DNA of 64,000 bases from Chloroflexota bacterium (GCA_016191435.1 JACPOQ010000028.1:1-64000); one strand, 5' to 3'; shown: positions 13,426-41,308, counted from the first letter of the stretch. Notes: a model not told the origin generated them from the letters alone. Program-made: numbers and translations.

Positions 13426-13427
13426 CC

Positions 13428-19562: not shown

Positions 19563-19627
19563 CGTCGGCGGCTGGTAGCATGTTCATCGCGTCCTCGAAG
19601 CGGACACAGAAACGGCTGGCATCGCTG

Positions 19628-21649: not shown

Positions 21650-21864
21650 CGCGGGAGGGTCTTCGGCCGATCCGTTGCTCGTCGTGTGGGAAGCTCGTCT
21701 GCGAGGCCGACGGGACGGTGGTGTTCCGGTGCCCGCGCTGCAAGCGGTGGAGTCGTAGTCCTCGGAAGTCACATCTCTTCCGGCTCAGCGATCCGGCCAA
21801 GATAGCTCACGAATCGCTGGATCAGTCTGTCACGGAAAGGCGGTTCCAACGCGGCGACCGATGA
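21646..21864 (+). CDS. Com-like zinc-ribbon protein, 3' end disturbed
   Basis: ATG 21646 overlaps the stop of the portal frame. Residues 8-37 (PIRCSSCGKLVCEADG, then FRCPRCKRWSR) are a four-Cys zinc ribbon like Mu Com-type translational regulators, which are common between portal and protease genes. After about position 21757 the frame runs over the 3' end of the opposite-strand gene, so the natural end is probably near SR and the last 30 or so residues are foreign. Confidence 0.55.
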   Translation: MTREGLRPIRCSSCGKLVCEADGTVVFRCPRCKRWSRSPRKSHLFRLSDPAKIAHESLDQSVTERRFQRGDR

Positions 21865-23501: not shown

Positions 23502-23666
23502 CCGATTCTACTGCCCCTTGGGCCACGTGGGCACCTTGCGTCGCTTGCATTCTCCCACAAGCCGCGTTAGGGCTCGGAACAGTGCGAAGCATCGTCCACG
23601 CCGGAGCCCCCCGCGGGCCGGAGCGAAAGTTCCGGCCGTTTTGTTCGGCCGGGGAAGGGGCAGCCG

Positions 23667-24413
23667 GTGCGGATCGACTGGAAGTCCAACCTTCGCGGAG
23701 TCGCGCGGTACCCGGCTGAGTGCAAGCTGCTCGGCGAAGGCGAGCCAGCCGGCACCTTCGAGGCGTACGTCGCCATCTTCGGCACGCCCGACCGTCCCGA
23801 CTTCTTCGGCGACTCGGACATCATCGAGCCCGGCGCCTTCACCCAGGCCCTCCAGGAGAAGGGGCTCCCGCCGGTTGTCTGGTCGCACGTCTGGACGATC
23901 CCTCCCGTCGGGCAGGCGCTCCAGGCAGTCGAAGACGCGAAGGGCCTGCGCATCAAGGCTCGGCTCTTCCTCGACGACGACGGCATCAGCGGCCAGTACG
24001 CTCGCTCCATCCATACCGGCATGACCGCCACGCCGCCCGTCGTGCGCGAGTTCTCGTTCGCCTTCGAAGCGAAGGAGTGGAGCGACGAGAAGGTCCAGAC
24101 CGGCCAGTTCATCCGCCACCTGAAGCGGCTGGAGCTGTTCGAAGTCGGCCCGGTGCTCGTGGGCCGTCACCCGGACACCGAACTCATCGGCGCCAAGTCG
24201 CAGCCGCTGGTAGTGGCGCCCGCGGCGCTCGACCGGCAGGCAATCGCCCGCTCTCTCAACACCAAGTCTCCCGCACACCTCCGCGCCCGCTGGGACGCCG
24301 CGCTCAAGGCCGGCGCCCGAAACGCAAACGCCGACCTGGGGCGGCTCAACGACATCCACGACCAGGCCGGCGAAATCCAGACCCTCGCCGTCGCCAACGG
24401 CGCCGAACGGTAG
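23667..24413 (+). CDS. HK97 family prohead protease
   Basis: The 248-residue protein (GTG start at 23667) has the U35 protease pattern: GTFEAYVAIFGTPDRPDFFG, DIIEPGAFTQAL, the likely catalytic His in VVWSHVWTIPPVG and Ser in VREFSFAFEAKEW, then a linker-rich C-terminus as in proteases with a scaffold tail. It cleaves capsid scaffold in HK97-like phages. It is the only complete structural phage gene left, and the capsid gene that should follow is cut after about 24 codons. Confidence 0.88.
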   Translation: MRIDWKSNLRGVARYPAECKLLGEGEPAGTFEAYVAIFGTPDRPDFFGDSDIIEPGAFTQALQEKGLPPVVWSHVWTIPPVGQALQAVEDAKGLRIKARLFLDDDGISGQYARSIHTGMTATPPVVREFSFAFEAKEWSDEKVQTGQFIRHLKRLELFEVGPVLVGRHPDTELIGAKSQPLVVAPAALDRQAIARSLNTKSPAHLRARWDAALKAGARNANADLGRLNDIHDQAGEIQTLAVANGAER

Positions 24414-24422: not shown

Positions 24423-24497
24423 ATGAGCATGACCATCTCGATCGACAACCTGCGCACCGCCCTCCGCGACACCAACGCGAAGGCCGCGGTCGCCTTT
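24423..24497 (+). pseudogene. Phage major capsid gene, first ~24 codons only
   Basis: ATG 24423 opens SMTISIDNLRTALRDTNAK, a plausible capsid or scaffold N-terminus right after the protease, then breaks at about 24495 where an IstB reading frame begins (LRQLKLSGML). The rest of the capsid and tail genes are absent, so the prophage ends here at an IS21-type insertion or deletion. Confidence 0.55.
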
Positions 24498-25233
24498 GCG
24501 CCAGCTCAAGCTCTCCGGGATGCTCGACGCGATCAGCGCGCGGAGCGAAGAGGCCCGGACCACCGCCCTCGCCCCGCTCGACTTCCTCTTGCTGCTCCTC
24601 GACGACGAGCTCGCGCGCCGCCAGTCCGAAGGCATTGCCCGGCGAATCCACCAGGCACGATTCGAGGATCACTGCGACCTGCGCGACTTCGACTTCGCCT
24701 GCAACCCTGAGCTGCCTAAAGCGCGCATCTCGGAGCTGGCGAGCGGCCGCTACCTCCAGAACCACGCCTCCGTCTTCCTCTGCGGCCCGACCGGCGTGGG
24801 CAAGACTTTCGTCGCCCAGGCGCTCGGCGTTACCGCCTGCCAGCAAGGCCGCCGTGTCGTCTTCAGCAAGACGAACGCGCTCCTCACCGACCTCGCCGGC
24901 GGTCGCGCCGATGGCAGCTGGCAGCAGCGCTTCCGGCGTTACGTTGCTCCCGATCTGCTCATCCTCGACGACTTCGCGATGCGTGAGTACACGGTCGTGC
25001 AGGCTGAGGACCTCTACGAGCTGGTCGGCCGCCGCTTTCAGCGCAGCTCGCTCATCCTCACCACGAACCGCGAGCCAAAGGATCTCTATCCGCTCTTCCC
25101 CAACCCCGTGCTCGCCGTGGGTCTGCTCGACCGGCTCGTCAACAGCGCCCACGTCATCGCCATGACCGGCCGCAGCTACCGCCTCCGCCAGCGCCCCGCG
25201 GAACCGTCGAAGAGCGCTGGGGTCGCAAATTAA
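24496..25233 (+). CDS. istB: IstB-like ATPase of an IS21 remnant, N-terminus trimmed
   Basis: The frame has IstB motifs: LKLSGMLDAI near the start, Walker A CGPTGVGKTFVAQALG, Walker B LLILDDFAMREY, LILTTNREPKDLYPLF and a C-terminal RSYRLRQRP. It begins at the junction with the capsid fragment and lacks perhaps a dozen N-terminal residues. No istA accompanies it, so the element cannot move by itself. IS21-type end repeats follow at 25222-25272. Confidence 0.8.
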   Translation: MRQLKLSGMLDAISARSEEARTTALAPLDFLLLLLDDELARRQSEGIARRIHQARFEDHCDLRDFDFACNPELPKARISELASGRYLQNHASVFLCGPTGVGKTFVAQALGVTACQQGRRVVFSKTNALLTDLAGGRADGSWQQRFRRYVAPDLLILDDFAMREYTVVQAEDLYELVGRRFQRSSLILTTNREPKDLYPLFPNPVLAVGLLDRLVNSAHVIAMTGRSYRLRQRPAEPSKSAGVAN

Positions 25234-25825: not shown

Positions 25826-26623
25826 CTAGCCATCTCTCCACACCCCCATGTCGGCTGCTCGCCTTGCCCAGTCGGGAGTTACGTATGGTGCACCATACCG
25901 ACCCATGACGATGGCACCGAGGGTGGAGTTCAACACCGCCTGGGTGGCCAGCGCCCGGCCTGCCATCAGGCGAATGTTCTCGGCCGAGGTGGAAATCATG
26001 ACACTTTGCAGGTGCAGCCCGTCGTCTTCGATGCGGAGGCGCCCAGGGATGAAGATATCCTGCTCCTCCGGACGATGAATACCGCCGAGAACGTGCTTCA
26101 CCTTGTTGTACGCCACGACCCGTCCCCTGCCGTCCGACGTTCGCAGGCCCAGGATCCCCCGGGCGCCTTCAAGTTGCGCTGGGATGGCCCTGTCCACCGC
26201 CGCAACGATAGTCGGGTCCATGCCGGCCGCCTCCATCTCGGCGGTCGTCGGGACATGCACCATTCGGCGGTAGTCGTCAGGGCCCATCGCATCAAGCGCC
26301 GCTTTCAGGTCAGCTTCCTGCGTTGGCTTCACGTCGACGTGGTCGAGCAAATGGATCAGCGAACCTTCTACCGTGCCCGGCTTCCAGTTGCGGAGCACGA
26401 GATGCCAACCGACGAAGTCCTCAGTCCCCAGCATTTCGAGGCTGTATGTCTGGACGGCAAGGTAAGCCCGTTCGGTGTCGGGAAGTGAATCAAGCGGTGC
26501 TCCCAGTATCAGCTCGGCCTCGAACGCCCGCTGGCCCGTTGAAAACTGGATGGCATTCAGCAGGACCCGCTTGTCCTCGAGGAGTTGATCGTTGTCCGGA
26601 TAGCCAACGACTCTACCCGCCAT
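25826..26623 (-). CDS. Unknown 265-residue protein, last gene of the helicase/methylase operon
   Basis: The start ATG 26623 overlaps the stop of the 99-residue gene (TAATG). The protein has no recognised domain; notable stretches are VVGYPDNDQLLEDKRVLLNA, ERAYLAVQTYSLEMLGTEDF, ARGILGLRTSDGRGRV and VKHVLGGIHRPEEQDIFIP, with a mixed alpha/beta look and no signal peptide or membrane segment. Its coupling to the upstream four genes implies a stoichiometric partner of the system, for instance a regulator or sensor; this is inference only. Longer upstream open reading of the same frame is antisense noise. Confidence 0.7.
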   Translation of the reverse strand: MAGRVVGYPDNDQLLEDKRVLLNAIQFSTGQRAFEAELILGAPLDSLPDTERAYLAVQTYSLEMLGTEDFVGWHLVLRNWKPGTVEGSLIHLLDHVDVKPTQEADLKAALDAMGPDDYRRMVHVPTTAEMEAAGMDPTIVAAVDRAIPAQLEGARGILGLRTSDGRGRVVAYNKVKHVLGGIHRPEEQDIFIPGRLRIEDDGLHLQSVMISTSAENIRLMAGRALATQAVLNSTLGAIVMGRYGAPYVTPDWARRAADMGVWRDG

Positions 26624-26922
26624 TACATACCCGCCAGGTCCGGCAGCTCGCCGCGCGCGAGCTGGTCGTAGGCGTGGAGGACGTAGCGTTGGGTGCGGTA
26701 TTCGCCGAACTGCTTCAGCTCGTTTCGCTTGAGGCCGGGGAACGAGGCGCTGGGGTAGGGAGCGTCCAGGATCCACTCGAGGTCCGGGCGGTCGAGGTGG
26801 TAGAGGTGGGCGAAGATGGCGTCGAGCTCGCACTTGAGGCGGTGGCGGCGGTCCTCGTCCCAGGGGAACGGGTCGCGGTCGTAGTCGAGGTCGCGCGCAC
26901 TGAGGGCTTCCGGGCTATTCAC
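26623..26922 (-). CDS. 99-residue protein resembling the C-terminal tail of Eco57I-type methylases
   Basis: The GTG start at 26922 overlaps the methylase stop (GTGA). The sequence PFPWDEDRRHRLKCELDAIF, then HLYHLDRPDLEWILDAPYP, EYRTQRYVLHAYDQL has the order of the C-terminal helical tail of PglX/Eco57I-like enzymes (E-E-R-x-x-L-x-x-E-L-D-A, a YGEYRT-like motif, then a helix). The adjacent methylase already has its own tail of that kind, so this is a second, separate copy. It could be a relic of another methylase or a free-standing specificity or dimerisation subunit. Confidence 0.65.
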   Translation of the reverse strand: MNSPEALSARDLDYDRDPFPWDEDRRHRLKCELDAIFAHLYHLDRPDLEWILDAPYPSASFPGLKRNELKQFGEYRTQRYVLHAYDQLARGELPDLAGM

Positions 26923-29900
26923 GACATCATCCCGAGGATCAGGTCACGTGACCGGAATGCGCCGTAGCGTTGACGCTCGTACTTGGCTGCAGTCGAGAAG
27001 CTCTCCAGGATCAGGTCCATATCTTCCCGCGACAAGCTAAAGACATCCCGAGCGACGATTGCGTCCAGTTCAGCTCTGGCCACGAGTCGTTCCTCTGGGT
27101 CTGAGAATCCAAGAGGTTCGGCGCCGTCGGGTACCGTGGGAACCCAACCGTAGACCGACATCTCATTCCAGTAGCTCGCCATCTCAGGCCCAGCGCAGGT
27201 TAGTCGTAGCACCAGTTCGGCGAGTCGAGGACTAACAAGCTCGGGACTTCGATACCTCGGAAACGGAAGGCTATCCATGACGGTGAGCGTGAGATTGATG
27301 CTCGTCTTCTTCCGCACCAGATAGTCCATCGCGTAGGAGTTCGCAACAGCGAGCCAGGGCACGTAGCCAAACTCGAATTTCCCGGAGAATGTCATAGTCT
27401 GAAGCGAGTGACCACAGACGGTGCCATTCGGGATAAGCGAGGCGACAAGTGTTCGCTCGTTAGTTGGACTGGTCACGTTGCACCAAGCGGCCCTGAAGCG
27501 CCCAACTCGCTCGCGGGCCTTGTCGGGCACCTGGCCAACTGCTACGTACCACTGGGGCTGGATTCGTTTCCGTGGATGCCCGAACTCGAAATCCTCCCAG
27601 TCGGCCGAACGTCCTCGCCCGCCACGGTATCCCTTCGCCCGGTGGTCATACTGTCCGACCATCCTTCCCTCGTACACGGGGAGGCCGCCAGAATCTCCGC
27701 TGAAGAGGTCGCGGTCATTGCCCATATCGACCTCGCGCATGTAGTGCCGAATTGGCTCCCCGGCGCTCTCGTCACCGAACTTCGGCCAAGCGGCGTACAT
27801 CTTCGCTACGATGTCGATCTCGCGCTGGCTTCCGAACTCCATAATGGCCAAGGCATCGGGCGAGAACTCGCGGACGAGCGGGACCGGAATCCGGAGGGCC
27901 TCATCGGCGTTGGCGCGCTGGAGCTGTTCAACCGAGCGGATGTTGAAGGCACTGAGAAAGCTGTCGGTATGTTCTGTACGAAATGCCGAATACAGACAGA
28001 ACTTGGTGCGACTATCTATGTCTTTGAACCAGACCTCCGCAGAGTTCTCGAAGCCGAACAGTCGGGATAGAGTCCAATGCGCAAAAAGGCGTTCGCGAAG
28101 CGCCATAGAATTGGCACCATTCGAAAGTCCCTCCGGGACAACTTGCCCTGTAGCTCCGCCTAACCGTGTGAGGCATAAATGATTCTCCACGAACATACGG
28201 AAGATATTGAAGTCGCCCTTTCCGAGGTTGCCTGGAGCGAACAGCAAGAACCGCCCGGAGTTCTTGAGGAAATGGGCATTCTGGTAGAGGAGCCGACAGT
28301 AGTTGTCCCAGCGATGGGCTATCGGTTCATCCGCCAATAGCGCAGCCTGGATTCGACGTTGCTCGGTCGCATCTGCAAAGCGAATGGAGGGCTCGTAGAC
28401 AGCGAAGAACTCTTTAACGTCGGGACTCAAGGTGTCCCAGGGCGGGTTGCCGAGCATGCAGTCGAAGCCGCCCTTGCGGTCGTCGAACACGTCTGGAAAT
28501 TCCAGCTCCCAGTGAAACGGCCGCACTTCCTCCAGCATCCGCGCCAGTTGCCGTTCGAACGCGTTGCCCATCTCTTGCTCGCGCCCGGCGCGATGGTGGA
28601 GCAGGGTCGACTGTGTGGGCGGCGCCGGCGATTCGTCGTGGAGCGGCCAGAAGAAGGCAGCGGTCCAGAGGTCGGCGGCACGCTTCTTGTGGGCCAGCTT
28701 CGCCGCGAACTCGCCGTACTCCTCTTCCTTGAGCAGCACGTCTTCAGGCGCGTCCTCCTCGAACTCCGCAATTGCCCGCGCTTCCTTCGCCTCGGCAGCG
28801 CTGGGGCCAGCGGGCTCAAGTCCCGTGGATTCGAAGAGGCGCAGCTGGGGCTTCTCCAGCTCCTGCCGATTCTGCTTCTTCACCTCCTTCGCGACGTCCT
28901 TGCTGTCGCCTTCGACCGGCTCGAACGCCTCGGTGGGGATGCCTTTCTCAATCAGCTCCGTCGTCGCACCGACGAGCGAGTTGCCGCATTTGATGTGGTG
29001 GTCGAGGAAGCCGAGCGGCCGGCCGGGCTCGTGCCCTTCGAGCCACAAGGCCAGCCGGCAGAGGTCGACCGCGAGCGGGTTGAGGTCGACGCCGTAGACG
29101 CAGTGCGTGATCGCTTCGCGGATGCTGTGGCGGAGGACGGCCGGGTCTGGCTCGTGCTCGCCACTCGCCAGCCGCGCCAGCTCCCGCCCGATGCGCCGCG
29201 CGGCAGCGAGGAGGAAGTGCCCGCTCCCGCAGGCGGGGTCGCAGACCGCGAGGTCAAGCAGTGCCCTTCGCTTTCCTTCGATGTCTGGCGCCGATTCGAG
29301 CGCCTGCTGGATGACGGGGTCAAGTGCGCTGCGGATCAACTCCTGTACCAGTACCGAAGGGGTGTAGTAGGAACCGGTGGACTTCCGCTCTCCGCCGCTC
29401 GCGAGGGTGAACTGGGCCCGGCTGCCATCCGCCCGAAGTGACGGTTGTTCATCGAGGAGGCTCTCGTACACGGAGCCAAGCTCCTCGACATCGAGATCGC
29501 GGTAGTTGATGCGTCGATACCCGAACTTGGTCGGGGCCAGCGAGAGTCCACGGGCGGCCCCCTTCAGGGCATCGTTGCGGAGCTGCGCCGCCTCCAGGTC
29601 CGGACACATGCGTGTATCGAAGATGCCGCCACCGAGCGCGGGCAGTCCGAGGTTCGGGTTCCCCGCGCGCAAAAGGTCGAACGCCACGCGTTGCGCGCGC
29701 CAGAGGTCGTCGTGCCGGTTATCGCCGCGGTCGAGCCGGAGTCGTTCCCGCAGCCGCGAGACGGAGTAGTGGTCGTTGTAGATCTCGCGGCCACGGGCCC
29801 GGACATCCTTTTGAGCCTGGGGCTCCTCCTCGCGGTCACGTGGAAAGAGCAGGTCGCGTTCCTCCGCCACGAGCAGGAACAGGAGCCGGTAGACCACACG

Positions 29901-30785
29901 GAGAAGCTGCCGGTAGTAGCCGACGTCGTCGAGATCACCCGCTGCGAGCTTCTCCCGCAGGGCTTCGTTCTCCGGGTGGTCGAGGAACCCCTGCCCGAGG
30001 GCGCGAATCGCATTCTCGACGCCGAGCCGCAGGTCACCAAGCGCGCGGGCGCCGCGGACGAGCGCGGCTTTGTACCACTGCTCAAGGAAGCACGCGTCGG
30101 TGTCGCTCGTCCCCTTTGGCAGACGGCTCCGGTGCGCGACCAGCCAGAGGAGGGTGAAGTCGGCGAAGACGCCGCCTTCCATCATTCCTTCGAGGTCGAA
30201 CTCCAGGTACGCGGGACGCGTGAGGCTGGCGTTGTCGCGGAGGATTCGAAGTTGGCGGCCGTTGCTGACGATCCCCCAGAGGTGGTCGGTTTCGTTGAGG
30301 TACGACTGGAGGAAGCCATGCGGGCTCGCCTTCTGGCCGGGTGCCGAGGGATCGGCTTTATCCAGCGGCTGAGAGGCGGCTACGAGGTGCAAGGGTGGCG
30401 CTGTGGCTTCGCTGGTGGCTCGATGGGAGATGTGAAACGGCCGGCCGTTTACCTCCTCCGCCTGCGGCCGATAGCCCAGGTCGTCGTAGTCCAGCTCCGC
30501 AAGCAACGGAAGCAGCCACTGCTGGCGCGTGACGCCCAGTTCGGCGCCGGGCCGCGAGCCTTCGAGCCGGGCTTTGAAGGCGCCCCAGTACGCCTTCGCG
30601 TGCTCCCAGCTGCGTGCCGCAGCCTCCGTGAGCCGGACGTTCGGCTCGAGGCCGTAATCGCGTGCCGGGTCGAGACCTGGCAGATCCCGTTCGCGCGGAT
30701 CGGTGATGCGCTCGAGCAGTTCGGGCGGCAGCAAGCCTCCCTCAGAGCGGACGGTCGGACGGGAGTCGAGTGCGCGGCGTGCCAT
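26919..30785 (-). CDS. Eco57I-type N6-adenine DNA methyltransferase (DrmMI/PglX-like)
   Basis: Starting at ATG 30785 (overlapping the helicase stop as TGATG) the protein has about 1288 residues. Motif I is CDPACGSGHFLLAAARRIG, motif IV is NPPWDTLSPD, and between them lies YGVDLNPLAVDLCRLALWLE, all hallmarks of gamma-class adenine methylases fused to a long specificity region. The C-terminal tail includes EERLVARAELDAIV and RYGAFRSRD. No nuclease motif was recognised inside it, so protection and target recognition are the likely tasks, with cleavage or blocking left to the helicase genes. Third gene of the operon. Confidence 0.88.
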   Translation of the reverse strand: MARRALDSRPTVRSEGGLLPPELLERITDPRERDLPGLDPARDYGLEPNVRLTEAAARSWEHAKAYWGAFKARLEGSRPGAELGVTRQQWLLPLLAELDYDDLGYRPQAEEVNGRPFHISHRATSEATAPPLHLVAASQPLDKADPSAPGQKASPHGFLQSYLNETDHLWGIVSNGRQLRILRDNASLTRPAYLEFDLEGMMEGGVFADFTLLWLVAHRSRLPKGTSDTDACFLEQWYKAALVRGARALGDLRLGVENAIRALGQGFLDHPENEALREKLAAGDLDDVGYYRQLLRVVYRLLFLLVAEERDLLFPRDREEEPQAQKDVRARGREIYNDHYSVSRLRERLRLDRGDNRHDDLWRAQRVAFDLLRAGNPNLGLPALGGGIFDTRMCPDLEAAQLRNDALKGAARGLSLAPTKFGYRRINYRDLDVEELGSVYESLLDEQPSLRADGSRAQFTLASGGERKSTGSYYTPSVLVQELIRSALDPVIQQALESAPDIEGKRRALLDLAVCDPACGSGHFLLAAARRIGRELARLASGEHEPDPAVLRHSIREAITHCVYGVDLNPLAVDLCRLALWLEGHEPGRPLGFLDHHIKCGNSLVGATTELIEKGIPTEAFEPVEGDSKDVAKEVKKQNRQELEKPQLRLFESTGLEPAGPSAAEAKEARAIAEFEEDAPEDVLLKEEEYGEFAAKLAHKKRAADLWTAAFFWPLHDESPAPPTQSTLLHHRAGREQEMGNAFERQLARMLEEVRPFHWELEFPDVFDDRKGGFDCMLGNPPWDTLSPDVKEFFAVYEPSIRFADATEQRRIQAALLADEPIAHRWDNYCRLLYQNAHFLKNSGRFLLFAPGNLGKGDFNIFRMFVENHLCLTRLGGATGQVVPEGLSNGANSMALRERLFAHWTLSRLFGFENSAEVWFKDIDSRTKFCLYSAFRTEHTDSFLSAFNIRSVEQLQRANADEALRIPVPLVREFSPDALAIMEFGSQREIDIVAKMYAAWPKFGDESAGEPIRHYMREVDMGNDRDLFSGDSGGLPVYEGRMVGQYDHRAKGYRGGRGRSADWEDFEFGHPRKRIQPQWYVAVGQVPDKARERVGRFRAAWCNVTSPTNERTLVASLIPNGTVCGHSLQTMTFSGKFEFGYVPWLAVANSYAMDYLVRKKTSINLTLTVMDSLPFPRYRSPELVSPRLAELVLRLTCAGPEMASYWNEMSVYGWVPTVPDGAEPLGFSDPEERLVARAELDAIVARDVFSLSREDMDLILESFSTAAKYERQRYGAFRSRDLILGMMS

Positions 30786-33628
30786 CAGCTGACCACCGGC
30801 GCGATGATGTAGCATCCAAGGACATCGGCGGGTAGGTGCGGCTCGACGCGGTGGCGGAGATCCTTCGTTGTCATCCTTGCCGCTTTGCGCACGCGGTCGT
30901 GGGCTGCAAGAAGGGCTGCGGCGCGATCCTTCGCCCGCCCGGCGATATGCGCTTCGAGCGCAGGGATCGCATCAACGGCACGCTGAAGCCAGACGATTCG
31001 CTGCGCCTCGGGGACGTTGCCGTCCGCGCGCGCGCCGAGCAGTGACAGCGCCTCATCGTCTGGCAACCACTTCGGCGCATTGGCCTCACCCTGATACCCG
31101 AGGACGAGGCATTCTTCGGCGAGGAGAGCCTCGGTATCTGCACGGCGGCTCACATCGAGTTGGAAGCGCAGGCGGAGGAGCAGGAGCGTCGTCGTGCGCT
31201 GCACAACGTTCGATCGGATCGCCGCGGAACGGGCGGCCACACCATCATTCGCGCCTTCGAGTGCCGAACCTACTAGATAGTTCGCAAGCGACTCGACCAG
31301 TGGATGGATGCGCGGAATGTGGATGGCGTCCTGCGGCACGGGCAGGTGAAAACCGATGCGTCTGCGCCCGGCCAGCCCGCTCGCCTCTTTCACCGCCGCC
31401 GGGAGTCGCGAAGCATCGGAGAGATCGATGACCAAAGCCTTCTGTTCCTCCCCCAGCGGCTGGCCAAGGCGGGCGGTGGCGTCGCGAGCAAATCGCTCGA
31501 CATCGTTCGAGTCTCCCAATGCCCCCGCCGACTCGCGGAGCTCGGCCATCACCTCCTCCGGGTGCATTGCGTGCTGGGCGAAGATGGTGCGGCTGCGCTC
31601 TTCGCGCTCCACGGCGCGATTCCAGTCGAGTTGTTGTTCCGCCTGGTCGAACTCAAACTGCATCTGGCGGCTGTCGTCACGCTTCAGCAGGACCGCCTCG
31701 AGGATCGCTTCAAGCACTTTGTCGGACTCCGTTGGCACCGGTACGGAGACTCCGAGGGTCTGTCGAATCTGTTCAGCCTTGCGAATAATCACCCTGAGCA
31801 CGGCGCCATCGACCGGATTGTCCTGTCCATACACGAGGACGCTGCGGACCTCTGACGACGGCTGGGCATAGCGATCGACCCGACCATCGCGTTGCTCGTG
31901 TCGCGTGGGGTTCCAGCTCAGGTCGTAGTGGACGACTGCGTCGAAGTGGCGCTGAAGATCGATGCCTTCGGATAGGCAGTCGGTGGCGACGAGCACGCGC
32001 CGGGATGAGTCGCCCAGTAGTTCGACTCGCTGTCGCCGCACCTCCGGCGGGAGTACACCGGTAACCGATTCGACGGTCACCGGTGTACGGCCGCGGCGAT
32101 TCAGGCGTTCCCCTAGCTCGTCGGCGACGTAGTTAGCGGTCGCGATGTACCGGCAGAAGATGATCGGGTTGAAGCCGTCCTTAAGCAGCGATTCGATGTC
32201 GGTCGTGAGCCTGGCCAGCTTGCGATCATCGTCGCCCGCGAGCTTCTCAGCGTCACGCGCCATCTCTAGCAGGCGGCGCCGATCTCGGGCGTCCGATGCT
32301 TCGGCGGCGATCGTGTCGGCGCCTGGAACCGCATCGTCCTCGTCCGCCGACTCGCTGGATTCCTGGTCGAACACGGAGCGCAGCCCGCGCTCGTCGATTT
32401 CGGATACGTCGCCTTCGGCTTCTCCGGCCCCTCCTGCCCGCGTTCGCAGAGCGGCGGCAGCCGCCATCGGGCTCGAGCCCACGCAGCGAAGAAGCGCGAG
32501 TGCCGCCCACCAACGGACGCGTTGCTGGAACCGCGTCGCGCCCTCAGTCGAGCGCACCATCTCGGTGGCGTAATCCAGCACTCGGTCCAGGAGCGCGCGG
32601 TAGCCCGGCGACATCGTGTACGGCAGCTCGGAGGCTTTGCGCGTGGGGAAGTCGGTACGCTCCCCTGAGAAGGCAACCACGTCGCCACGGCGCCGCTGCA
32701 CGAAGTGCCGGGCGATCCGCCTGCGAAGCTGCTCGTGTTGCTGGCCGCCGAGGCCCTCGGGAATCGATGCAAACTCCGGGTCCAGCAGCCCGAGCAGGGA
32801 GTAGAACGCAGACTCGACACCGCTGTGTGGTGTCGCAGTGCAGAGCACAAGGTGCCTTTCGGAATTCGCTGCCAGCTCTTTGACCAGCCGGTGGCGCTGC
32901 TGCTGCCCGCCGCCCGTCGAGGCGCCCTCAGCACAGGTGTGAGCTTCGTCGACTATCACGAACTCGGGGCAGGCGCGAATGAAGTCGGCACGGCGCCGGT
33001 CCGACTTGATGTAGTCGATGGAGACCACCACGAACGGGTATTCGTCGAACAGGGACCGGCCGATTGGCAGGTTTCGCTCGAGCCGGGCGACGGTACCCGG
33101 ACGCACGACCTCGGCGTCGATGCGGAACTTGCCAGAAAGTTGTTCCTGCCACTGCTCGCAGAGGTGCGGCGGGCAGAGGACAGCCATGCGCCGGATCTCG
33201 GCACGGTCGAGGAGTTCCCGGGCGATGAGGGCTGACTCGATGGTCTTCCCGATGCCGACGTCATCGGCGATGAGGAGCCGCACGGGATCCTGCCGGAGGG
33301 CCATCAGCAAGGGCACCACCTGGTAAGAGCGCGGCTCGACACCAATACGCCCAAGCGAGCGGAACGGTCCAGCTCCAGAACGGAAGTTGAGGCGGACAGC
33401 GTCCATGAGCAACCGAGCCGAGGCGAAGTCCCCGTGTCGGGCCGGGTCAGGTGGCGAGAACGTGGCGGACCGAACATCGTGGCCCTCGACGGGGAGAAAG
33501 AGGCCAACCGACTCATCATCGGACCCGCCGAGGGGGCGTAGACTGAGGAGTTCGTGATCACTCTGCGGCAGGACGACCCAGTCGCGCCCACGTGCGCGCA
33601 CAAGCGTTCCGGCGCGGTACTCCGTCAC
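30785..33628 (-). CDS. SNF2-type helicase (DrmD-like)
   Basis: The GTG at 33628 overlaps the upstream stop (GTGA), giving about 947 residues. Helicase motifs: Walker A LLIADDVGIGKTIESALIA, LCPPHLCEQWQEQL, DEAH box FVIVDEAHTCAEGA, LCTATPHSG, and the second RecA domain with ATDCLSEGIDLQRHFDAVVH and SWNPTRHEQRDGRVDR. These are typical of the SNF2-like subunit of class 1 DISARM and related systems. The C-terminal 300 residues are helical with no known motif. Stop and next start overlap (TGATG). Confidence 0.88.
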   Translation of the reverse strand: MTEYRAGTLVRARGRDWVVLPQSDHELLSLRPLGGSDDESVGLFLPVEGHDVRSATFSPPDPARHGDFASARLLMDAVRLNFRSGAGPFRSLGRIGVEPRSYQVVPLLMALRQDPVRLLIADDVGIGKTIESALIARELLDRAEIRRMAVLCPPHLCEQWQEQLSGKFRIDAEVVRPGTVARLERNLPIGRSLFDEYPFVVVSIDYIKSDRRRADFIRACPEFVIVDEAHTCAEGASTGGGQQQRHRLVKELAANSERHLVLCTATPHSGVESAFYSLLGLLDPEFASIPEGLGGQQHEQLRRRIARHFVQRRRGDVVAFSGERTDFPTRKASELPYTMSPGYRALLDRVLDYATEMVRSTEGATRFQQRVRWWAALALLRCVGSSPMAAAAALRTRAGGAGEAEGDVSEIDERGLRSVFDQESSESADEDDAVPGADTIAAEASDARDRRRLLEMARDAEKLAGDDDRKLARLTTDIESLLKDGFNPIIFCRYIATANYVADELGERLNRRGRTPVTVESVTGVLPPEVRRQRVELLGDSSRRVLVATDCLSEGIDLQRHFDAVVHYDLSWNPTRHEQRDGRVDRYAQPSSEVRSVLVYGQDNPVDGAVLRVIIRKAEQIRQTLGVSVPVPTESDKVLEAILEAVLLKRDDSRQMQFEFDQAEQQLDWNRAVEREERSRTIFAQHAMHPEEVMAELRESAGALGDSNDVERFARDATARLGQPLGEEQKALVIDLSDASRLPAAVKEASGLAGRRRIGFHLPVPQDAIHIPRIHPLVESLANYLVGSALEGANDGVAARSAAIRSNVVQRTTTLLLLRLRFQLDVSRRADTEALLAEECLVLGYQGEANAPKWLPDDEALSLLGARADGNVPEAQRIVWLQRAVDAIPALEAHIAGRAKDRAAALLAAHDRVRKAARMTTKDLRHRVEPHLPADVLGCYIIAPVVS

Positions 33629-36600
33629 TTCGCCTCCTCGCCGAACACCCAGGCGTGGGCCCGAGCGGTTTCTTCCCATGGCGTCTCGGGAGTGAATCGA
33701 ATGACTTCGTACCCCGCCTCCCGGAGCCGGCGGTCTGCCTCGGCGTCGCGGGCCTTTCGGTGCTCATAGAGGTGATGCCGGCCGTCGATGAAGACACAGG
33801 CGGCCGCGTCCCGATAGTAGAAGTCGGGGTTTGCGGGCGGTTCCGCGATGTGCCTTTGAGCTTCATCCGGTGGCCGCAACCCGTGCTCTTCGAGGAAGTC
33901 AAGGAATTCGGGCTCGGCAGATGACCCGGGATCCAACGTCCGGCGTAATTCGGCAAACTGCTCCGCACGAGAGCGACTCCCAGCGCCGACCGATGTCTCA
34001 CACCCGCCCAGCCGCAGGAGTACGTCCTTCACACGGTGGCGGTCCAGAATCTCGTGGTAGCGGGTGTTTGAGTAGCTGCGCAGGCAGTCGTAACAGGCGG
34101 CCTCGCAGTCCTCGCGGGCATGGGGCGCGCGGCGTTGGTCGTCGCCGGTGGTGGGGTCGAAGTGGCAGACTTCCAAGGCAGCCCGTGCGACTTCAGCCAT
34201 CGCTCCCTGGTCAACGGCGAGCCGTTCGAGAACGCCCGCACCACCCTCCGCCGATTCGTAGAACATCAGTAGACGTGGTTCTTCGGGCGTTGGGAGCGGC
34301 TCTACCGCGAGCTCGGACGGCTCGACCTGGTACACCGTTTCGATTCCACGCTTCAGGGCATATTGGAGGCTCATGAGCGCGTCGGGCGCCAACTGGGGAC
34401 CGAAGCGAAGCAGCAGCGTGTTCCGCCGATCCTCAACGAATGGCACCACGCGCTGGATGCCCGTCGCCAGTTGGGCTTCCGGGTCAGCCTCCTCCGAATC
34501 GGCATCCGGCTCCTGGTCGCTCCGGCCCCATCTGCCGGTGTTCATGTTGAGGTTAAAGCCGTGGATCTCCTTGTTCTTTCTCCGCACCCAGCCGAGATTG
34601 AACCGCCAGAGTGTCGCGGTCGGCGCGAGCTCGCCAAATGCCACGGGGTCGCCGTTCGCGGAGTAGGACATGCGAACGCGGCGATCCCCCTCGGGGCCGG
34701 ATGCGAAGGCATAGGCCGTCCGGACCTCGTAGCCAAGCCGCAGGCGCTCCTCTTCGTCGCTGGTGATCCGGGCCATGCGGCGGGTCTTCACGCCGGCCAG
34801 CCGCAAAAGCTCCGAATAGGTTCGCGAAGCCCCTTCCATGTTCTCCCCGCACCCGTGGCAGACCTCGTCGTTCACACCGGCCCCAAAGTGGGCGAAGCCG
34901 CAGAGTCCGCAGAGCTTGCAGCTGGTTGTCCGGAGGCCATTGTTGTCCACGGTGGGGAGGATCACTCCATCGACGCGGTACCTCGCGCCCTCGTGGTAGA
35001 TGAGGCTCCTCGGACCAAACTCGGATACGGCGATGAACCGGGGGCGTGAGATCGCCTCCATCTCTCGGCGCCGGGAACCTTGGAGCCGTTCACCTGGCAG
35101 GTAGGCGGCAATCGGCAGCCGGGGGAAGTTGTAGCCCGGGAGGAAGCCCTCGCTGGCGAAGTAGCGGTAGGGGTTGAAATCCGAGGATGGTTCGACCTCC
35201 TGGCCCGCGAGGAGGTCGAGCTGGCGTTGTGCCTCGTCGCGCCGCAGAGCCGCACGATCGCGGTCAGGCTTAGCGACGGCCATATCTCGCGCAATGCGCT
35301 CTTGTTCCTGGCGCTGTGCCATCGCCGAGCGATACATGAAGCGCCAACGCTCAGTCGCTCGGTCGAACGTGGCCGGGGCGCTGGCGAGGGTGCGGTCAAG
35401 CCAGGCCGCATCGTGCCACGGGGCGTCCGCCAGCGTGGCGGCCAGTTGGCCCAGCATCGGCGCGCAGACGGCAGCGGCCCGACTTCGAGCGTTTTCGCTG
35501 GCCAGCGAATCGGCGATACCAGGCAGGAGCGGCAGACCGTCTCCGTGCGTCAGGTCGATCACGTCCTGCATCGAGCGGCCCAACGATTGCTCGGTGGCGG
35601 CCAACCACTCGGCATGCACGTGAGCCTTGATGAGGTCCTCGTTGGCCAGGTCGAGCCGGGGCGGTTGGACAGCCCCGGAAACCATGAGGCTAGGCCGGTG
35701 GAAGAAGTACTGGTCGTGCTGGTTCATAGACGAGCAATAAGTCGTTACGAGTGCGGGTTGGCCACCGCGGCCGGCCCGCCCGCTGCGCTGAGCGTAGTTC
35801 GCCGGGGTAGGCGGGACGTTGCGCATGTTCACCGACGACAGATCGGAAATGTCGACACCAAGTTCCATCGTTGGCGAGCAATACAAAATTGGCAGGGTAC
35901 CCTGCCGGAAGCGCTCCTCGCGCGTTTCGCGATCGTCGGTTGCCACTTGTGCCGTGTGCTCCCGCGCTTCCAGCGTTGCGAGGTTTAGCGCCACATGCTG
36001 GTACAAGTCCCGGAAGAAAGCGTTGGCGTCGGCCTGCTCACGCGAGACACGAGGCGTCCGCGTGAAGTCCACCGCCGGTTTCCCGTCACCCAGGCGCCAT
36101 CGAAGGCGCGCCATACGTAGCCGGTAGATGATGGGCTGCCCTGCGCCATCCTTTGGCTCCCGGAACTCCTTCCCACCGTACGGTTCCAGGAAACCATTCC
36201 GCGCGAGGACATCTACCAGAGATCTCGCAAGGGCGGGGAACTCCTTCGCCGGGAGTTTCTTCTGGGCCGGAAGCCCAGGCCACGTCCCCGGGCTGCGGAG
36301 GAAGTGCCCGATACCGCTCTGGGCGGTCAGCGCAGCCTCGCGGTCCCCGCGAGTATCAAGGGCCGGCGCCAACCTCCCGACGCGGAACAGCTGAAGCCGT
36401 TCATCGCCTTCGACACCCCAGCTCAATCCGCCTTTCGGCGCAGGCTCCTTCGATGAACGAAGGTGCTGCTCGCTGAGCCGCTTCATTCGGTCTTGATCGT
36501 CGCTTTCGAGCGCGCCAGCGTTCACCGCCAGGGCGCGCCGCATCCAGTTGAGCAATTCGCGACAGGCGCGTTCCCGATCTTCGGGCGTAGCTGTCCACAC

Positions 36601-38928
36601 GTAATCGGGCGCGCCCTCCCACTTCGAAGTGTCGCTGCACAAGTCATCCAAGCGTTCGTAGTCGATGGCTAGCAGGCCTGCCTGCTCAAGGTTCGGTGAT
36701 GTGAGTCGCCAGCCAAAGCGCATGTCGTTGAACACGCGGTAGGCGATCACGGCCCGTAGTGCCCTCTTCGCGTCGTCTCGGCTGTACTCGTCGTCGGGGT
36801 TTCGGCCGTAGTCCGCGTAGTCCAGCCCGAGTGAATCCACAACCCTGATCGGCAGCTCCTCGTAGTCAAGACCACCTGGCCCGGCATCGCTGACTGCCTT
36901 CAGCAATGCGCCTCGCAGCCAGGTGGTCTGTACGAAGTCATTGAAGTGCCCAGCCTGCAGGGAGGCGTCTTGACGGTTGTCCGTGAAGCTCAGCAGCTTC
37001 CGCGCTTGAGCGCTGACGTCTGCGGCGACACGCAGGGCTTGAACGACCGAGAGGGAAATCACGGTCGTCGCTGTACTGCGGCCCTCGGTTGCCAGTTCGG
37101 TGAGCTTGCCGATATCGGATCGTTGTCTTCCGGAGTACGAAACCCGACAACGGACACATACTCGGAAAGGTGATCGGAGAAACCACGCGTCGAGCCCCTG
37201 AAGAGCAGTCCCCGGAGAGCACTTGCCGTCGGCGGCAACGCGCACGTTCGTGGGTACGAGGTCACGGTAGGCCCGCGCTACTCGTGGGAATCCATCCGGT
37301 CCGGTTTCGACCCAATCCTCGGGAAAGTCCTCGTCCGGATCTCCTGTCCAGTCGAGCCCAGCAGCGAGCGCCACGTAACCTGAGACGATGTCCTCGTCAT
37401 CTGCTTCGGCCCGCGACGAGACGTCTCGACCGCGAAGCTGTCCATCCCGGAGGGCACGCCGGCCGCCGAGGTTCCGATCCACCAGTTGCCCCTCTCGCTG
37501 ATCCCAGTCGACGACGTAGTATTCCTGCCCGCACTCCCGGCAAAACGCGAGCGGCAAGAGAATGCGCGATCTGTCGCCTGGGGGTTCAGGGACGAACTGC
37601 TGGGCTTGCATCGTCAGGTGGCGCTGCGAGGGGTTCTCGACGGAGGCGTAAACGGTGTCGCCCCGTGAAACGAACTGGTGAAGGCGGAACGCGAATAGCG
37701 GCAGGCCGGTACCGAGGCTCCTTGCGTGGAAGCCCGCAAGGAGAGCCTCCCGGAGGTGAGTAGCTGCTGTTTCCGGCGAGACTCTGGCCTGCTCCGCCAG
37801 GAGCTTGGCTGCTGAAGGGAGGTCGAGAGGCTCGGCGCGCACAACCGTGCCATCCTCCTCGGTTCCCAGCCCCAGGACGCGCTCGATCCAGCTCGCTACC
37901 GGGTCGGAGACCAACGCTTTCACGTCCCTGGGATAGCTCGTTGCTTCGCTCAGCCGTCGGCGAAGTGCGTCGGGCGATGTGTCTCCTCGCGTTACCTTGA
38001 CAAGCGACTCGTCTATGACAGCGTTGGCCTCGACCTTCGCGCCAAAGATGGTTGAGGCGACGGCAGCGACCGTCTGACGCCGCTCGGCCCGAGTGCCGCC
38101 ACCCGCGATGGTGGCCGACGTACCGACGCACCGGAGCGCTTGGGCGCGGGTGCGTTCTCGGACGCGACGCACGAGCATGGCGACGTCCGCGCCCTGACGG
38201 CCGCGATACGTGTGCAACTCATCAAGCACAAGAAAGTCAAGGCCCTGCGCAGCTCGGATGACCTTGCGATCAATCTCGGCCGGCCGCGTCATGATGAGTT
38301 CGAGCATCATGAAGTTGGTGAGGAGTATGTCAGGAGCGGAATTGGCGAGCCGCTCGCGCTCGTCCGCGCTTTCCTGCCCGGTGTACCTTGCGAACGTGAC
38401 CGGCTGGTTGGCCTCGCCGTACCCCGCAACGACGAACTTTCGAAGCTCCTCCATCTGGCTATTGCAGAGCGCGTTCATCGGATAGACGACGATGGCCGAG
38501 ATATGGCCCTGTCGCCCTTCTCGGGGCTTTTGCAGGACGTGGTCGATGATCGGGACCATGTACGCGAGGCTCTTACCGGAGCCGGTGCCCGTCGTTAGGA
38601 CGTACGAGCGTCCGGTGCGAGCAATCTCAATTGCGTCACGCTGGTGACGGTAAAGGAGTAGTGGCTCCCCGTACGGATCCTTGTGCTTGTTACGGCGGAA
38701 GATCCGAGCGCACTCCGAATGGAGGAGTCCCTCCCCTACGAGGTCGTCGATCGACCCGCCGGGTGCATAGGCAGGATTGAGTTGGACCAAAGGGTTCGGC
38801 CAGAGCACTCCGCTTTCCAGCTCCGCATCGACGAAGCCTCGGATGTGCCCGTCGCGGATGCGAACGAAGCTCTGCACGTACCGAGCGTAGTCGTCGATGA
38901 CCTTATCTCTGAGGCCGAAGACATCCAT
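33625..38928 (-). CDS. Giant DEAD/DEAH helicase with DUF1998-type zinc region and C-terminal nuclease-like domain
   Basis: The 1767-residue protein starts at ATG 38928. In order: Walker A LTTGTGSGKSLAYM (about residue 130), ILLTNFMMLELIM, DELH box FLVLDELHTYRGRQGADVA, GTSATIAGGG, a Cys pair CRECGQEYY, the second RecA domain with SPTMELGVDISDLSSVNMRN and YAQRSGRAGRGGQP, a zinc cluster CKLCGLCGF/CHGCGENM, and the DUF1998/MZB Cys set ending ACYDCLRSYSNTRYHEIL. The last 100 residues (PPANPDFYYRDAAACVFIDG and EAGYEVIRFTPE) look like a DUF559/Vsr-type nuclease. It may correspond to DrmA plus DrmB fused, or to a DruE-like helicase. First gene of the defence operon. Confidence 0.85.
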   Translation of the reverse strand: MDVFGLRDKVIDDYARYVQSFVRIRDGHIRGFVDAELESGVLWPNPLVQLNPAYAPGGSIDDLVGEGLLHSECARIFRRNKHKDPYGEPLLLYRHQRDAIEIARTGRSYVLTTGTGSGKSLAYMVPIIDHVLQKPREGRQGHISAIVVYPMNALCNSQMEELRKFVVAGYGEANQPVTFARYTGQESADERERLANSAPDILLTNFMMLELIMTRPAEIDRKVIRAAQGLDFLVLDELHTYRGRQGADVAMLVRRVRERTRAQALRCVGTSATIAGGGTRAERRQTVAAVASTIFGAKVEANAVIDESLVKVTRGDTSPDALRRRLSEATSYPRDVKALVSDPVASWIERVLGLGTEEDGTVVRAEPLDLPSAAKLLAEQARVSPETAATHLREALLAGFHARSLGTGLPLFAFRLHQFVSRGDTVYASVENPSQRHLTMQAQQFVPEPPGDRSRILLPLAFCRECGQEYYVVDWDQREGQLVDRNLGGRRALRDGQLRGRDVSSRAEADDEDIVSGYVALAAGLDWTGDPDEDFPEDWVETGPDGFPRVARAYRDLVPTNVRVAADGKCSPGTALQGLDAWFLRSPFRVCVRCRVSYSGRQRSDIGKLTELATEGRSTATTVISLSVVQALRVAADVSAQARKLLSFTDNRQDASLQAGHFNDFVQTTWLRGALLKAVSDAGPGGLDYEELPIRVVDSLGLDYADYGRNPDDEYSRDDAKRALRAVIAYRVFNDMRFGWRLTSPNLEQAGLLAIDYERLDDLCSDTSKWEGAPDYVWTATPEDRERACRELLNWMRRALAVNAGALESDDQDRMKRLSEQHLRSSKEPAPKGGLSWGVEGDERLQLFRVGRLAPALDTRGDREAALTAQSGIGHFLRSPGTWPGLPAQKKLPAKEFPALARSLVDVLARNGFLEPYGGKEFREPKDGAGQPIIYRLRMARLRWRLGDGKPAVDFTRTPRVSREQADANAFFRDLYQHVALNLATLEAREHTAQVATDDRETREERFRQGTLPILYCSPTMELGVDISDLSSVNMRNVPPTPANYAQRSGRAGRGGQPALVTTYCSSMNQHDQYFFHRPSLMVSGAVQPPRLDLANEDLIKAHVHAEWLAATEQSLGRSMQDVIDLTHGDGLPLLPGIADSLASENARSRAAAVCAPMLGQLAATLADAPWHDAAWLDRTLASAPATFDRATERWRFMYRSAMAQRQEQERIARDMAVAKPDRDRAALRRDEAQRQLDLLAGQEVEPSSDFNPYRYFASEGFLPGYNFPRLPIAAYLPGERLQGSRRREMEAISRPRFIAVSEFGPRSLIYHEGARYRVDGVILPTVDNNGLRTTSCKLCGLCGFAHFGAGVNDEVCHGCGENMEGASRTYSELLRLAGVKTRRMARITSDEEERLRLGYEVRTAYAFASGPEGDRRVRMSYSANGDPVAFGELAPTATLWRFNLGWVRRKNKEIHGFNLNMNTGRWGRSDQEPDADSEEADPEAQLATGIQRVVPFVEDRRNTLLLRFGPQLAPDALMSLQYALKRGIETVYQVEPSELAVEPLPTPEEPRLLMFYESAEGGAGVLERLAVDQGAMAEVARAALEVCHFDPTTGDDQRRAPHAREDCEAACYDCLRSYSNTRYHEILDRHRVKDVLLRLGGCETSVGAGSRSRAEQFAELRRTLDPGSSAEPEFLDFLEEHGLRPPDEAQRHIAEPPANPDFYYRDAAACVFIDGRHHLYEHRKARDAEADRRLREAGYEVIRFTPETPWEETARAHAWVFGEEAK

Positions 38929-39093
38929 GCGGGCGCGCTCCCTTCACCTTCGCGGGGCGTGTGGGCTACCGCCGCTGAGTGTGTCATGTTGGTCGATTGA
39001 ACCTCTACACCGCAAGCGCGCCAGCAGCTGTCGTGAAGTCACGCCCGACCATCGTGCAGCTCGGCTATCGTCGGGCAAGGGCGTGACGAGCCG

Positions 39094-39938
39094 TCAACTC
39101 CCCCAGCAACCTCGTCGTCTTCTGGGAATGGGTTCCGCATGCTCGTCCTTCAATTCCCGCTGTAGCGATGCCACCAGGGTCTTGTACGCCCGCTTGACCG
39201 CATTGGTGTCTCCGAGCGCCGAGTGGCATCGCATCACACCGCGCACCGCTTCTTCGTCAATCGGATCGCGCTGCAGGATCGCTTCGTACAACTGGATTGC
39301 CAGCTTCGGATCGCGACCGTCGAAGGCGAGCCGAGCGGCGCGGTGGGCCGCCGTCACGAACCGCTTCTGGTAGTCGCGGCGGTAGACCTCCGCCCACTCG
39401 TAGATCTCGTCGCCGAGGAAGTCGGCGCTGTACAGGGCCAGCGCCGTTCGTCCTCGACCAGCGCCTCATAGCCCTGGAGTCTTTCAGCCCGGCCAACGTA
39501 CCCGTCAAAAGGCGTCGACGCCACACGGAACGGGCCGGGCCGGAGGATATAACGCTGGCTTGCCGTGAACAGCACCTGGCCATCCAGCTCACCGGCTGCT
39601 TGCGTCGCCCTTCGCCTGAGGTAGTAGGCCGCGTTGGACAACTGGTGGTCGAGCTGGTCTACGTCGCCATCGGGCCAGAGCGCCTCCGCCACCGTATCTC
39701 GCAGCACCGGCGTGCCGCCATGCGCCGGAAGGAAGGCGAGGGGCTCGCGAGCCTTCTTGATGTTCCATCCGTTTACCTCCCCGATTTCCGTCTCGACCCG
39801 AAACGCGCTTCCGCAGCCTCCGCTTCCTGCTGTGCTTATCCCTCGCCCGGCAAGGATCGCACCCTCGGCACCGAGCTCTAATTTCGTTGAGAGCGGCCCG
39901 ATCCGTTCGAACGCCTGGCAGCACTGGTTAATTGACAA
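39094..39938 (-). pseudogene. BTAD/SARP-type transcriptional regulator, frameshifted and N-terminally cut
   Basis: The frame from 39938 shows a winged-helix region (IKKAREPLAFLPAHGGTPVL, RDTVAEALWPDGDVDQLDHQ, LSNAAYYLRRRA) and the start of a bacterial transcriptional activation domain (FDGYVGRAERLQGYEALVED). Near 39450 homology moves to another frame reading ALALYSADFLGDEIYEWAEV, then AAHRAARLAFDGRDP and DEEAVRGVMRCHSALGDTN, ending at 39094. One base is missing at the break. The N-terminus stops close to the IS256 element. It is upstream of and co-oriented with the helicase operon (165-base gap), so it was probably its regulator. Confidence 0.72.
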
Positions 39939-39968
39939 TGGTCACGTCCCGTCAAGTGGTGTAGCGGC

Positions 39969-41308
39969 GGTGCCATCGTGGTGGGGTGTCGGCCGCGGCC
40001 GACACCCCAGTTTGCGGCTTAAACAGCGAGCGGAAGTGAGTCGATAGCGACCTCCTGCGGTGATGATGTGACGACTTCCCTGAGCAGCGGTTTCAGGGAC
40101 TCGTCACTGAGGTAGCGACGGGCGATGAGCCATTCGTCGTTCTGCTCGGCGAGGACCGCACCGATGAGGCGAAGCGCCGCTTTGCGGTTGGGGAAGATGC
40201 CGACGACATCCGTGCGCCGGCGGATCTCTTTGTTCAGGCGCTCCTGGGGGTTGTTGGACCAGATCTGGCGCCAGTGCGGCTGGGGGAAAGCCGTGAAGGC
40301 GAGGATGTCCGGGCCGGCCTCGGCGAGCATGGTGGCGGCGTCCGAGAAGCGGGCCTCGAGCTGTTCGACCACTTGCCGATGACGCGCCCAGACGTCGATC
40401 GCGTCTGTCTGCTGGTAGATGGAGCGCACGAGCGTGGCGACCAGGGGCTGGGCACTCTTCGGTACCTTCGAGAGCAGATTCGTCATGAAGTGAGTGCGGC
40501 AGCGCTGCCAGGATGCGCCGCCAAAGACAGCAGCGATGGCAGCCTTGAGTCCACCATGGGCGTCGGAGGTGACGAGCTGGACGCCTGCGAGCCCGCGTGC
40601 GACGAGGCTGCGCAGGAAGGCGAGCCAGAAGGCACCGTCCTCGGCTGTGCCAGCGTCGATGCCAAGGATCTCGCGTTTGCCCTCGCCGTTGACGGCTGTC
40701 GCGACGACCACCGCGATGTTCACGACCCGTCCGTCCTCGCGCACTTTCTGGGTGAGCGCATCGAGCCAGAGATACGGATAGGGACCAACGTCGAGCGGAC
40801 GGTTGCGGAAGGCTTCGACGACCCCATCCAGGTCACCGCAGATGCGCGAGACCTCGCTCTTGGAGATGCCATCGCAGCCCAGGGCACGCACGAGGTCATC
40901 GACGCGCCGCGTAGAGACACCCTCGACGTAGGCCTGCTGGATGACGGCAAGGAGGGCTTGCTCGCTGCGGCGACGGGGTTCCAGGAAAGCGGGGAAGTAG
41001 CTGCCGGTGCGCAGTTTCGGGATCGCGAGGGCGAGCGTGCCGGCGCGCGTATCCCAGCGGCGTTCGCGGTAGCCGTTGCGCTGGGCGACACGCTCGACTG
41101 AGCGTTCGCCGTAGGCCGCGCCGGCCTGGGCGTTGACCTCAGCGTCCATGAGGCCGTGCAGAAGCGTCGAGAGCGCTTCGTGGAGGAAGTCGGTACTGTC
41201 GTCGCCCAGGCGCTTGCGGACGACATCGAGGATGTCCATCGTAGGGGTCGCGGTCATGGTGTCAGCTCCTTGGAGTGTGGCTGGAGTTCAACACCACGAT
41301 GACACCAT
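39969..41308. mobile_element. IS256-family insertion sequence, about 1.34 kb
   Basis: GGTGCCATCGTGGTG at 39969-39983 and the reverse complement of GGTGTCATCGTGGTG at 41294-41308 form 14/15 matching terminal inverted repeats around an intact transposase gene. The size fits the family. No target duplication was recognised, so the exact outer bases are uncertain by a few positions. Confidence 0.75.
40019..41257 (-). CDS. IS256-family transposase
   Basis: The 412-residue protein is full length: N-terminal ALSTLLHGLMDAEVNAQAGA, AQRNGYRERRWDTRAGTLAL, SKSEVSRICGDLD, first catalytic Asp in YLWLDALTQKV, second in VTSDAHGGLKAAI, the WQRCRTHFMTNLL motif of mutator-type enzymes, and Glu in NPQERLNKEIRRRTDVVGIF. 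The frame is uninterrupted, so the element is potentially active. It sits between the broken BTAD regulator and a gene-poor stretch. Confidence 0.95.
   Translation of the reverse strand: MTATPTMDILDVVRKRLGDDSTDFLHEALSTLLHGLMDAEVNAQAGAAYGERSVERVAQRNGYRERRWDTRAGTLALAIPKLRTGSYFPAFLEPRRRSEQALLAVIQQAYVEGVSTRRVDDLVRALGCDGISKSEVSRICGDLDGVVEAFRNRPLDVGPYPYLWLDALTQKVREDGRVVNIAVVVATAVNGEGKREILGIDAGTAEDGAFWLAFLRSLVARGLAGVQLVTSDAHGGLKAAIAAVFGGASWQRCRTHFMTNLLSKVPKSAQPLVATLVRSIYQQTDAIDVWARHRQVVEQLEARFSDAATMLAEAGPDILAFTAFPQPHWRQIWSNNPQERLNKEIRRRTDVVGIFPNRKAALRLIGAVLAEQNDEWLIARRYLSDESLKPLLREVVTSSPQEVAIDSLPLAV

Follow-up and report, generated by a model that had tools for sequence, protein, structure and literature searches.

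In a 64,000-nucleotide stretch of a Chloroflexota bacterium genome (GCA_016191435.1 JACPOQ010000028.1:1-64000; the whole stretch is called the window here), five open reading frames (ORFs) on the minus strand occupy positions 25826-38928 as an operon in which genes for a YprA-type helicase-nuclease, a SNF2 helicase and an adenine methyltransferase are followed by two small genes. The host is taken to be a member of Dehalococcoidia, and the draft assembly of its genome totals 3.8 Mb over 98 contigs (90% complete). An earlier description made from the DNA alone (the sequence-only reading) had reported five genes joined by overlaps of 1-4 bases, a 1767-residue protein combining helicase, DUF1998 and nuclease functions, and the lack of DrmC, and had regarded the set as an anti-phage system of new composition. 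All five ORFs were confirmed, and the junctions read as it had given them: GTGA between the YprA stop and the SNF2 start (33628-33625), TGATG between the SNF2 and methylase genes (30787-30783), GTGA between the methylase gene and the 99-residue ORF (26922-26919), and TAATG between the 99- and 265-residue ORFs (26625-26621). With corrected starts, the products comprise 1767, 947, 1288, 99, and 265 residues in operon order, and the features are as follows.

33625..38928, minus strand: ArmC-like YprA/DUF1998 helicase-nuclease, 1767 residues, operon gene 1 (PADLOC, Pfam, motifs, tree)
33628..33972, minus strand: predicted Vsr/DUF559-type (PD-(D/E)xK) nuclease domain at the helicase C-terminus (DUF559 in relatives; conserved E, D, D)
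30785..33628, minus strand: ArmA-like RapA/BrxHII (SNF2) helicase, 947 residues (NCBIfam, PADLOC, motifs)
26919..30785, minus strand: ArmB-like PglX/Eco57I-type N6-adenine methyltransferase, 1288 residues, mosaic (Pfam, PADLOC, motifs)
26922..28401, minus strand: replaced 3' segment of the methyltransferase gene, about residues 796-1288, the putative specificity half (break in the DNA match, guanine-plus-cytosine (GC) content, block identity)
26623..26922, minus strand: 99-residue ORF, apparently the C-terminal tail left over from the previous methyltransferase (tail hidden Markov model; 87% identity to the end of the L087 protein)
25826..26623, minus strand: 265-residue protein of a family without match, putative passenger or accessory gene (TAATG overlap with the tail ORF)

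Catalytic motifs were intact and conserved in all three large proteins. The top PADLOC match of the 1767-residue helicase was DruE3 (1.8e-99), with 332 bits for DruE vs 57 bits for DrmA, and Pfam assigned it DEAD, Helicase_C and MZB (DUF1998, 2.9e-10) domains together with a marginal DUF559 at the C-terminus, so that the merged helicase, DUF1998 and DUF559-like nuclease parts noticed earlier do lie in one protein. Its Walker A (TGTGSGK), DELH, QRSGRAGR and zinc CxxC motifs were kept across up to 26 homologues. The SNF2 protein (SNF2 and Helicase_C in Pfam) matched PADLOC PDLC02853, a model labeled DpdE, at 8e-235, followed by DrmD; its scores against the NCBIfam models for DrmD (3.7e-98, 330 bits) and DpdE (184 bits) fell under the curated cut-offs of 610 and 500 bits, and no operon protein reached the NCBIfam equivalog cut-off for DrmD, DpdE or DpdJ. 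Its DDVGIGKT and DEAH motifs were kept in 45 sequences. The methyltransferase matched Eco57I in Pfam (3.4e-14) and, in PADLOC, DrmMI (1.6e-81) as well as type IIG enzymes, with its DPACGSG and NPPW motifs intact. PADLOC and Pfam returned no match to DrmC or another phospholipase D (PLD) nuclease in the operon, as the sequence-only reading had said, and none to DruH.

In the published ARMADA Type I system (Bell et al. 2025 preprint, PMC12458937), a YprA homologue comes first and is followed by a BrxHII-like helicase and after that by a methyltransferase of PglX type; DUF1998 is fused to YprA, and a C-terminal Vsr nuclease is predicted to be active. The operon has the same order of YprA, BrxHII/RapA helicase and PglX-like methyltransferase, and an OB-CON-DUF1998 fusion to the YprA core was evident from the MZB match within the same ORF and a fold match to MrfA; concerning the further Type I features (BrxA-like insertion, beta-barrel zinc module, MarR-like and coiled-coil parts), conserved CxxC motifs were seen. 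In a tree of 24 helicases, with an E. coli protein from a locus of Type II order (L074), DruE and DrmA-DrmB as comparators, the window helicase paired with that of a close relative, G689 (100/100), within a 17-row clade (92/98) which is called Type I here from the YprA-first gene order of its loci and not from published reference sequences; the E. coli, DruE and DrmA-DrmB comparators all lay outside it. Because the genes and their order are those of the published definition and the helicase belongs to the YprA-first clade, the three large genes can be identified as ARMADA Type I, and the operon is very probably an ARMADA Type I anti-phage system with a mosaic methyltransferase, to which the 265-residue gene is not core. 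Like the published Type I systems, it has YprA first, a fused DUF1998, a Vsr/DUF559-type nuclease at the C-terminus and no ArmD, but it differs in the replaced 3' half of the methyltransferase gene, the orphan tail ORF and the 265-residue gene. It has the three core protein families in common with ARMADA Type II, as seen in the E. coli locus, whereas Type II runs SNF2, methylase, YprA and then a GajB-like helicase (the RelE-GajB-like ArmD); the window operon starts with YprA, has no fourth helicase and stands apart in the tree. The same YprA-SNF2-methyltransferase run is also annotated in Roseomonas, Deinococcus, Nocardioides, Chlorohelix, Sphingobium, Agrobacterium and others, including plasmid records and many phyla, and the SNF2 protein was present in 56 of 400 Chloroflexota genomes (E < 1e-80). 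With this operon, whose core is ordinary, ARMADA Type I gains a member from Dehalococcoidia.

The last 115 residues of the helicase are predicted to form an active Vsr-type PD-(D/E)xK nuclease. DUF559 was matched by 11 of 14 aligned helicase C-termini (best 3e-6), with the window copy sitting at the cut-off, and the nuclease positions E, D (NPDF) and D (IDG) were kept in the alignment. A structure prediction for this C-terminus, which had been suggested with the sequence-only reading, was run on the last 351 residues (predicted local distance difference test [pLDDT], 79; predicted template modeling score [pTM], 0.55); Foldseek matched its DUF1998 part to MrfA (probability 0.99, E 3.6e-3), and the nuclease assignment comes from sequence conservation.

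The methyltransferase is a mosaic. Its nearest relatives, both of the same family, are those of G689 (contig 100, locus L087) and G640. Compared in 50-residue blocks, the window and G689 proteins were 82-100% identical to residue 750, 70% identical over 751-800 and 20-42% identical over 801-1250, and identity returned to 84-90% in the 99-residue ORF. Likewise, the DNA matched L087 at 82% over window positions 31879-28402 and, after a gap, at 88% over 26895-26620. The break lies near the NPPW motif (residues 780-783), with the two proteins agreeing at about 90% as far as residue 780, and the GC content of the replaced segment is 57.8% vs 67.2% and 68.4% on either side. A Roseomonas methyltransferase was the top match for residues 800-1220 only, not for the front half, with 36-58% identity over residues 801-1250 vs 20-42% to L087. 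Since the break and return of identity, the GC shift and the likeness to Roseomonas coincide in this segment, the plain reading is that the back half of the methyltransferase, from about NPPW on, was replaced by a segment of another origin that has its own stop codon. A second case was found in locus L043, where DNA identity to L041 was 78% up to position 12332 (about residue 789), absent to 13689 and 90% thereafter; the break thus falls at the same point as in the window, the replaced stretch (12332-13689) has a GC content of 36%, and what is left of the old tail downstream covers only the last 31 positions of the tail profile. A tail fragment in L030 is a third, weaker trace of such a replacement. 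In type IIG and PglX-like enzymes the catalytic domain is followed by the target-recognition regions, and the swap may have altered the DNA sequence recognised by the methyltransferase. The locus offers a sequence-level example of back-half exchange in an ARMADA I methyltransferase, a clean swap after the catalytic motif that was seen twice.

On the plain reading, the 99-residue ORF, which is still open and overlapping, is a tail orphaned from the former methyltransferase of the operon; the label of tail stub in the sequence-only reading was literally right, as this ORF is the severed end of a methyltransferase. A profile built from methyltransferase tails, with the window left out, matched the ORF at 2e-30 (96 bits) and the methyltransferase's own end at 6e-16 (49 bits), and in G689 a sequence 87% identical to it forms the end of the methyltransferase reading, continuous with the residues before it. 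The tail lay within an ORF of more than 1000 residues in 34 examined loci (one a weak match), and in the remaining loci where it was found it had been severed by insertions, frameshifts or gene splits. A recent origin of the ORF by duplication of the present methyltransferase's tail was rejected, the two tails being distant by these scores and the ORF being that close to the G689 tail.

Several points weigh against an ARMADA Type I system with a mosaic methyltransferase. The phage tests published for ARMADA were made with a Type II system, and no Type I phage test is reported (PMC12458937). Foldseek found no match to a Vsr structure for the nuclease domain; an endonuclease-like solved chain, 3hrl, appeared at E 0.39 only. 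The G689 methyltransferase reading, on which the block comparison depends, has one frameshift upstream of the tail, and its two frames were joined for comparison only. Misassembly at the joins is formally possible in a draft assembly, although the frame is open and collinear across them. Finally, the synonymous divergence (dS) between the window and G689 is 0.40 for the tail vs 0.9-1.0 for the flanking genes, which is unexplained.

The last gene of the operon encodes a 265-residue protein with no match in Pfam, NCBIfam, PADLOC or PHROGs. Its AlphaFold2 model (pLDDT, 81.6; pTM, 0.83) consists mostly of helices plus a small beta-meander, and the fold had no match in PDB or BFVD at E < 0.001. Seven relatives were detected, all in Dehalococcoidia (six in a survey of the class and one more when about 85,000 species genomes were scanned), whereas a single-sequence scan of the genome contigs found nothing and no relatives were found in viruses, phages or plasmids. 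An eighth match, in G122, covered only 50 residues. A weak match in G077, among ordinary metabolic genes, was treated as spurious, and a HEPN-like reading suggested by an NKxKH motif was unsupported by Pfam or the fold. The gene occurred in no examined ARMADA locus except that of the window, and it appears to be a lineage-specific passenger or accessory in a variable position, not a core part. That position is well delimited: homology to G689 stops within 3 bases of the tail stop codon, after which the window continues through TAATG into the 265-residue gene and G689 through TGATG into a gene for a protein resembling retron nucleoside-deoxyribosyltransferase effectors.

Other ARMADA I loci carry overlapping genes of several kinds at the same position, encoding a McrB-like ATPase (L004), a DarT ADP-ribosyltransferase (L046), an OLD-like ATPase (L064), an HNH protein (L076), SMC-like proteins (L070 and L078) and the nucleoside deoxyribosyltransferase-like protein of L087, and some loci have no such gene. 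The DarT gene (L046:14695-15375) overlaps the 3' end of the methyltransferase gene of its ARMADA I locus. Because this slot holds varied overlapping genes in other ARMADA I loci, an accessory role for the 265-residue protein is possible but unproven. That it is a functional accessory or effector in an exchangeable slot would agree with these genes, with the TAATG overlap of its gene at the point where G689 runs through TGATG into a different gene and with the relative in L009, which immediately follows a type IIG restriction-methylase; however, the other six relatives sit amid housekeeping or unassigned genes, no other examined ARMADA locus has the gene, and neither a domain nor a fold was recognised, so that we consider this role somewhat improbable. 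A broader proposal, in which ARMADA I methyltransferases would trade a whole specificity half at NPPW and leave orphan tails, with an exchangeable overlapping effector position behind them and the 265-residue protein as a new, structurally unmatched family, is advanced only tentatively and is rather doubtful as a whole. For finding uncharacterised effectors, the variable slot that follows the ARMADA I methyltransferase offers a practical starting point.

The 99-residue ORF might alternatively be a working subunit that complements the degenerate tail of the methyltransferase in trans and is kept by translational coupling. Consistent with this, the ORF is open behind its GTGA overlap, its tail motifs are intact and it scores far above the methyltransferase's own tail, and its ratio of nonsynonymous to synonymous substitution (dN/dS) against G689 is 0.15, below neutral; a free-standing tail ORF also exists in Paracoccus. 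However, that ratio is above the 0.06-0.07 of the flanking genes, homology starts no more than about 10 residues into the ORF and tracks the recombination joint, the same kind of event in L043 left a fragment only, and a separate copy is absent in most relatives. A subunit of this kind seems unlikely, and the ORF is better read as an orphaned tail. In the Paracoccus ARMADA I locus (L075), the tail is a separate ORF (21564-21956) behind an unrelated 108-residue ORF. Small overlapping ORFs in defense operons can be recombination leftovers and not new components, which calls for caution.

The operon was also compared with other known systems. It resembles class 1 DISARM in its DrmD-like and DrmMI-like proteins and in DUF1998, and the SNF2 protein and methylase do score to the DrmD and DrmMI models, but a variant of class 1 DISARM in which DrmA and DrmB are fused is highly improbable: the DrmD score is little more than half the curated cut-off, the helicase scores far higher to DruE than to DrmA, the DrmA and DrmB functions are merged in one DruE-like protein with no separate DrmB and no DrmC, and Nocardioides has DISARM genes beside ARMADA I in a separate locus, with its DrmA-DrmB far outside in the tree. 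The DrmA score, the absence of DrmC and the tree together rule this variant out. Druantia III shares a helicase core, that of the window being best matched by DruE models, and a C-terminal nuclease; the window operon differs in having no DruH, a nuclease of DUF559/Vsr type and not PLD, and a methyltransferase and SNF2 protein. The top PADLOC match of the SNF2 protein is a likeness to Dpd, but membership was ruled out, as the NCBIfam DpdE score is under its cut-off and the operon has no deazaguanine genes. A new system of five components, separate from those already catalogued, would agree with five overlapping genes of which two have no family match, but it is scarcely credible and was ruled out, given that the core equals ARMADA Type I, the 99-residue ORF is a severed tail and the 265-residue gene is absent from all other examined ARMADA loci.

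The sequence-only reading was right that the composition is neither DISARM nor Druantia, although it is already catalogued, with the three large genes corresponding to ARMADA Type I in order; a gene-for-gene match to a catalogued subtype holds for three of the five genes. Its view of the two small genes as fixed in the operon, and of the 265-residue protein as a possible new component, did not withstand the survey it had proposed: the small genes do not co-occur with the three large ones, the tail being usually fused to the methyltransferase and the relatives of the 265-residue protein sitting elsewhere.

In published experiments on ARMADA Type II, all four genes were needed and protection was non-abortive (PMC12458937), and in Druantia III, DruE loads on 3' single-stranded DNA as a helicase-nuclease effector (PMC13192584). 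Because of these results, a likely scheme for the window operon is DNA-targeting immunity, in which a translocase and a helicase-nuclease would act together with a methyltransferase giving specificity or self-marking. The PglX-like methyltransferase would mark self DNA at its target site or work as part of a recognition complex. Unmarked or replicating phage DNA would be engaged by the RapA/SNF2 translocase and the YprA helicase and might then be cut by the Vsr-type nuclease at the C-terminus of YprA, blocking the phage without killing the cell.

Several further features were seen in the window. A clustered regularly interspaced short palindromic repeats (CRISPR) array at window positions 35-2300 contains more than 30 repeats of 29 nucleotides (GTCGTCCCCACACGCGTGGGGGTGAACCG) at 61-nucleotide spacing, with a type I-E-like repeat. 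A protein encoded at 19226-20725 combines an ASCH/EVE-like PRK00809 stretch with a C-terminal region resembling restriction enzymes (PADLOC REase_II, 3e-14) and is a candidate modification-dependent restriction enzyme. Phage remnants, including a portal protein (1.1e-54) and an HK97-type prohead protease, occupy 20765-24413, with a TIGR04255 protein interleaved on the opposite strand, and an IstB-like IS21 helper ATPase (24496-25230) adjoins the 3' end of the operon. Upstream of the operon, 39088-41257 holds a truncated copy of a gene whose full 1020-residue protein is encoded at the same place in G689 (L092), and after this copy comes a Mutator-family transposase (40019-41257). A large serine recombinase at 43438-45495 suggests a mobile element beside the defense genes.

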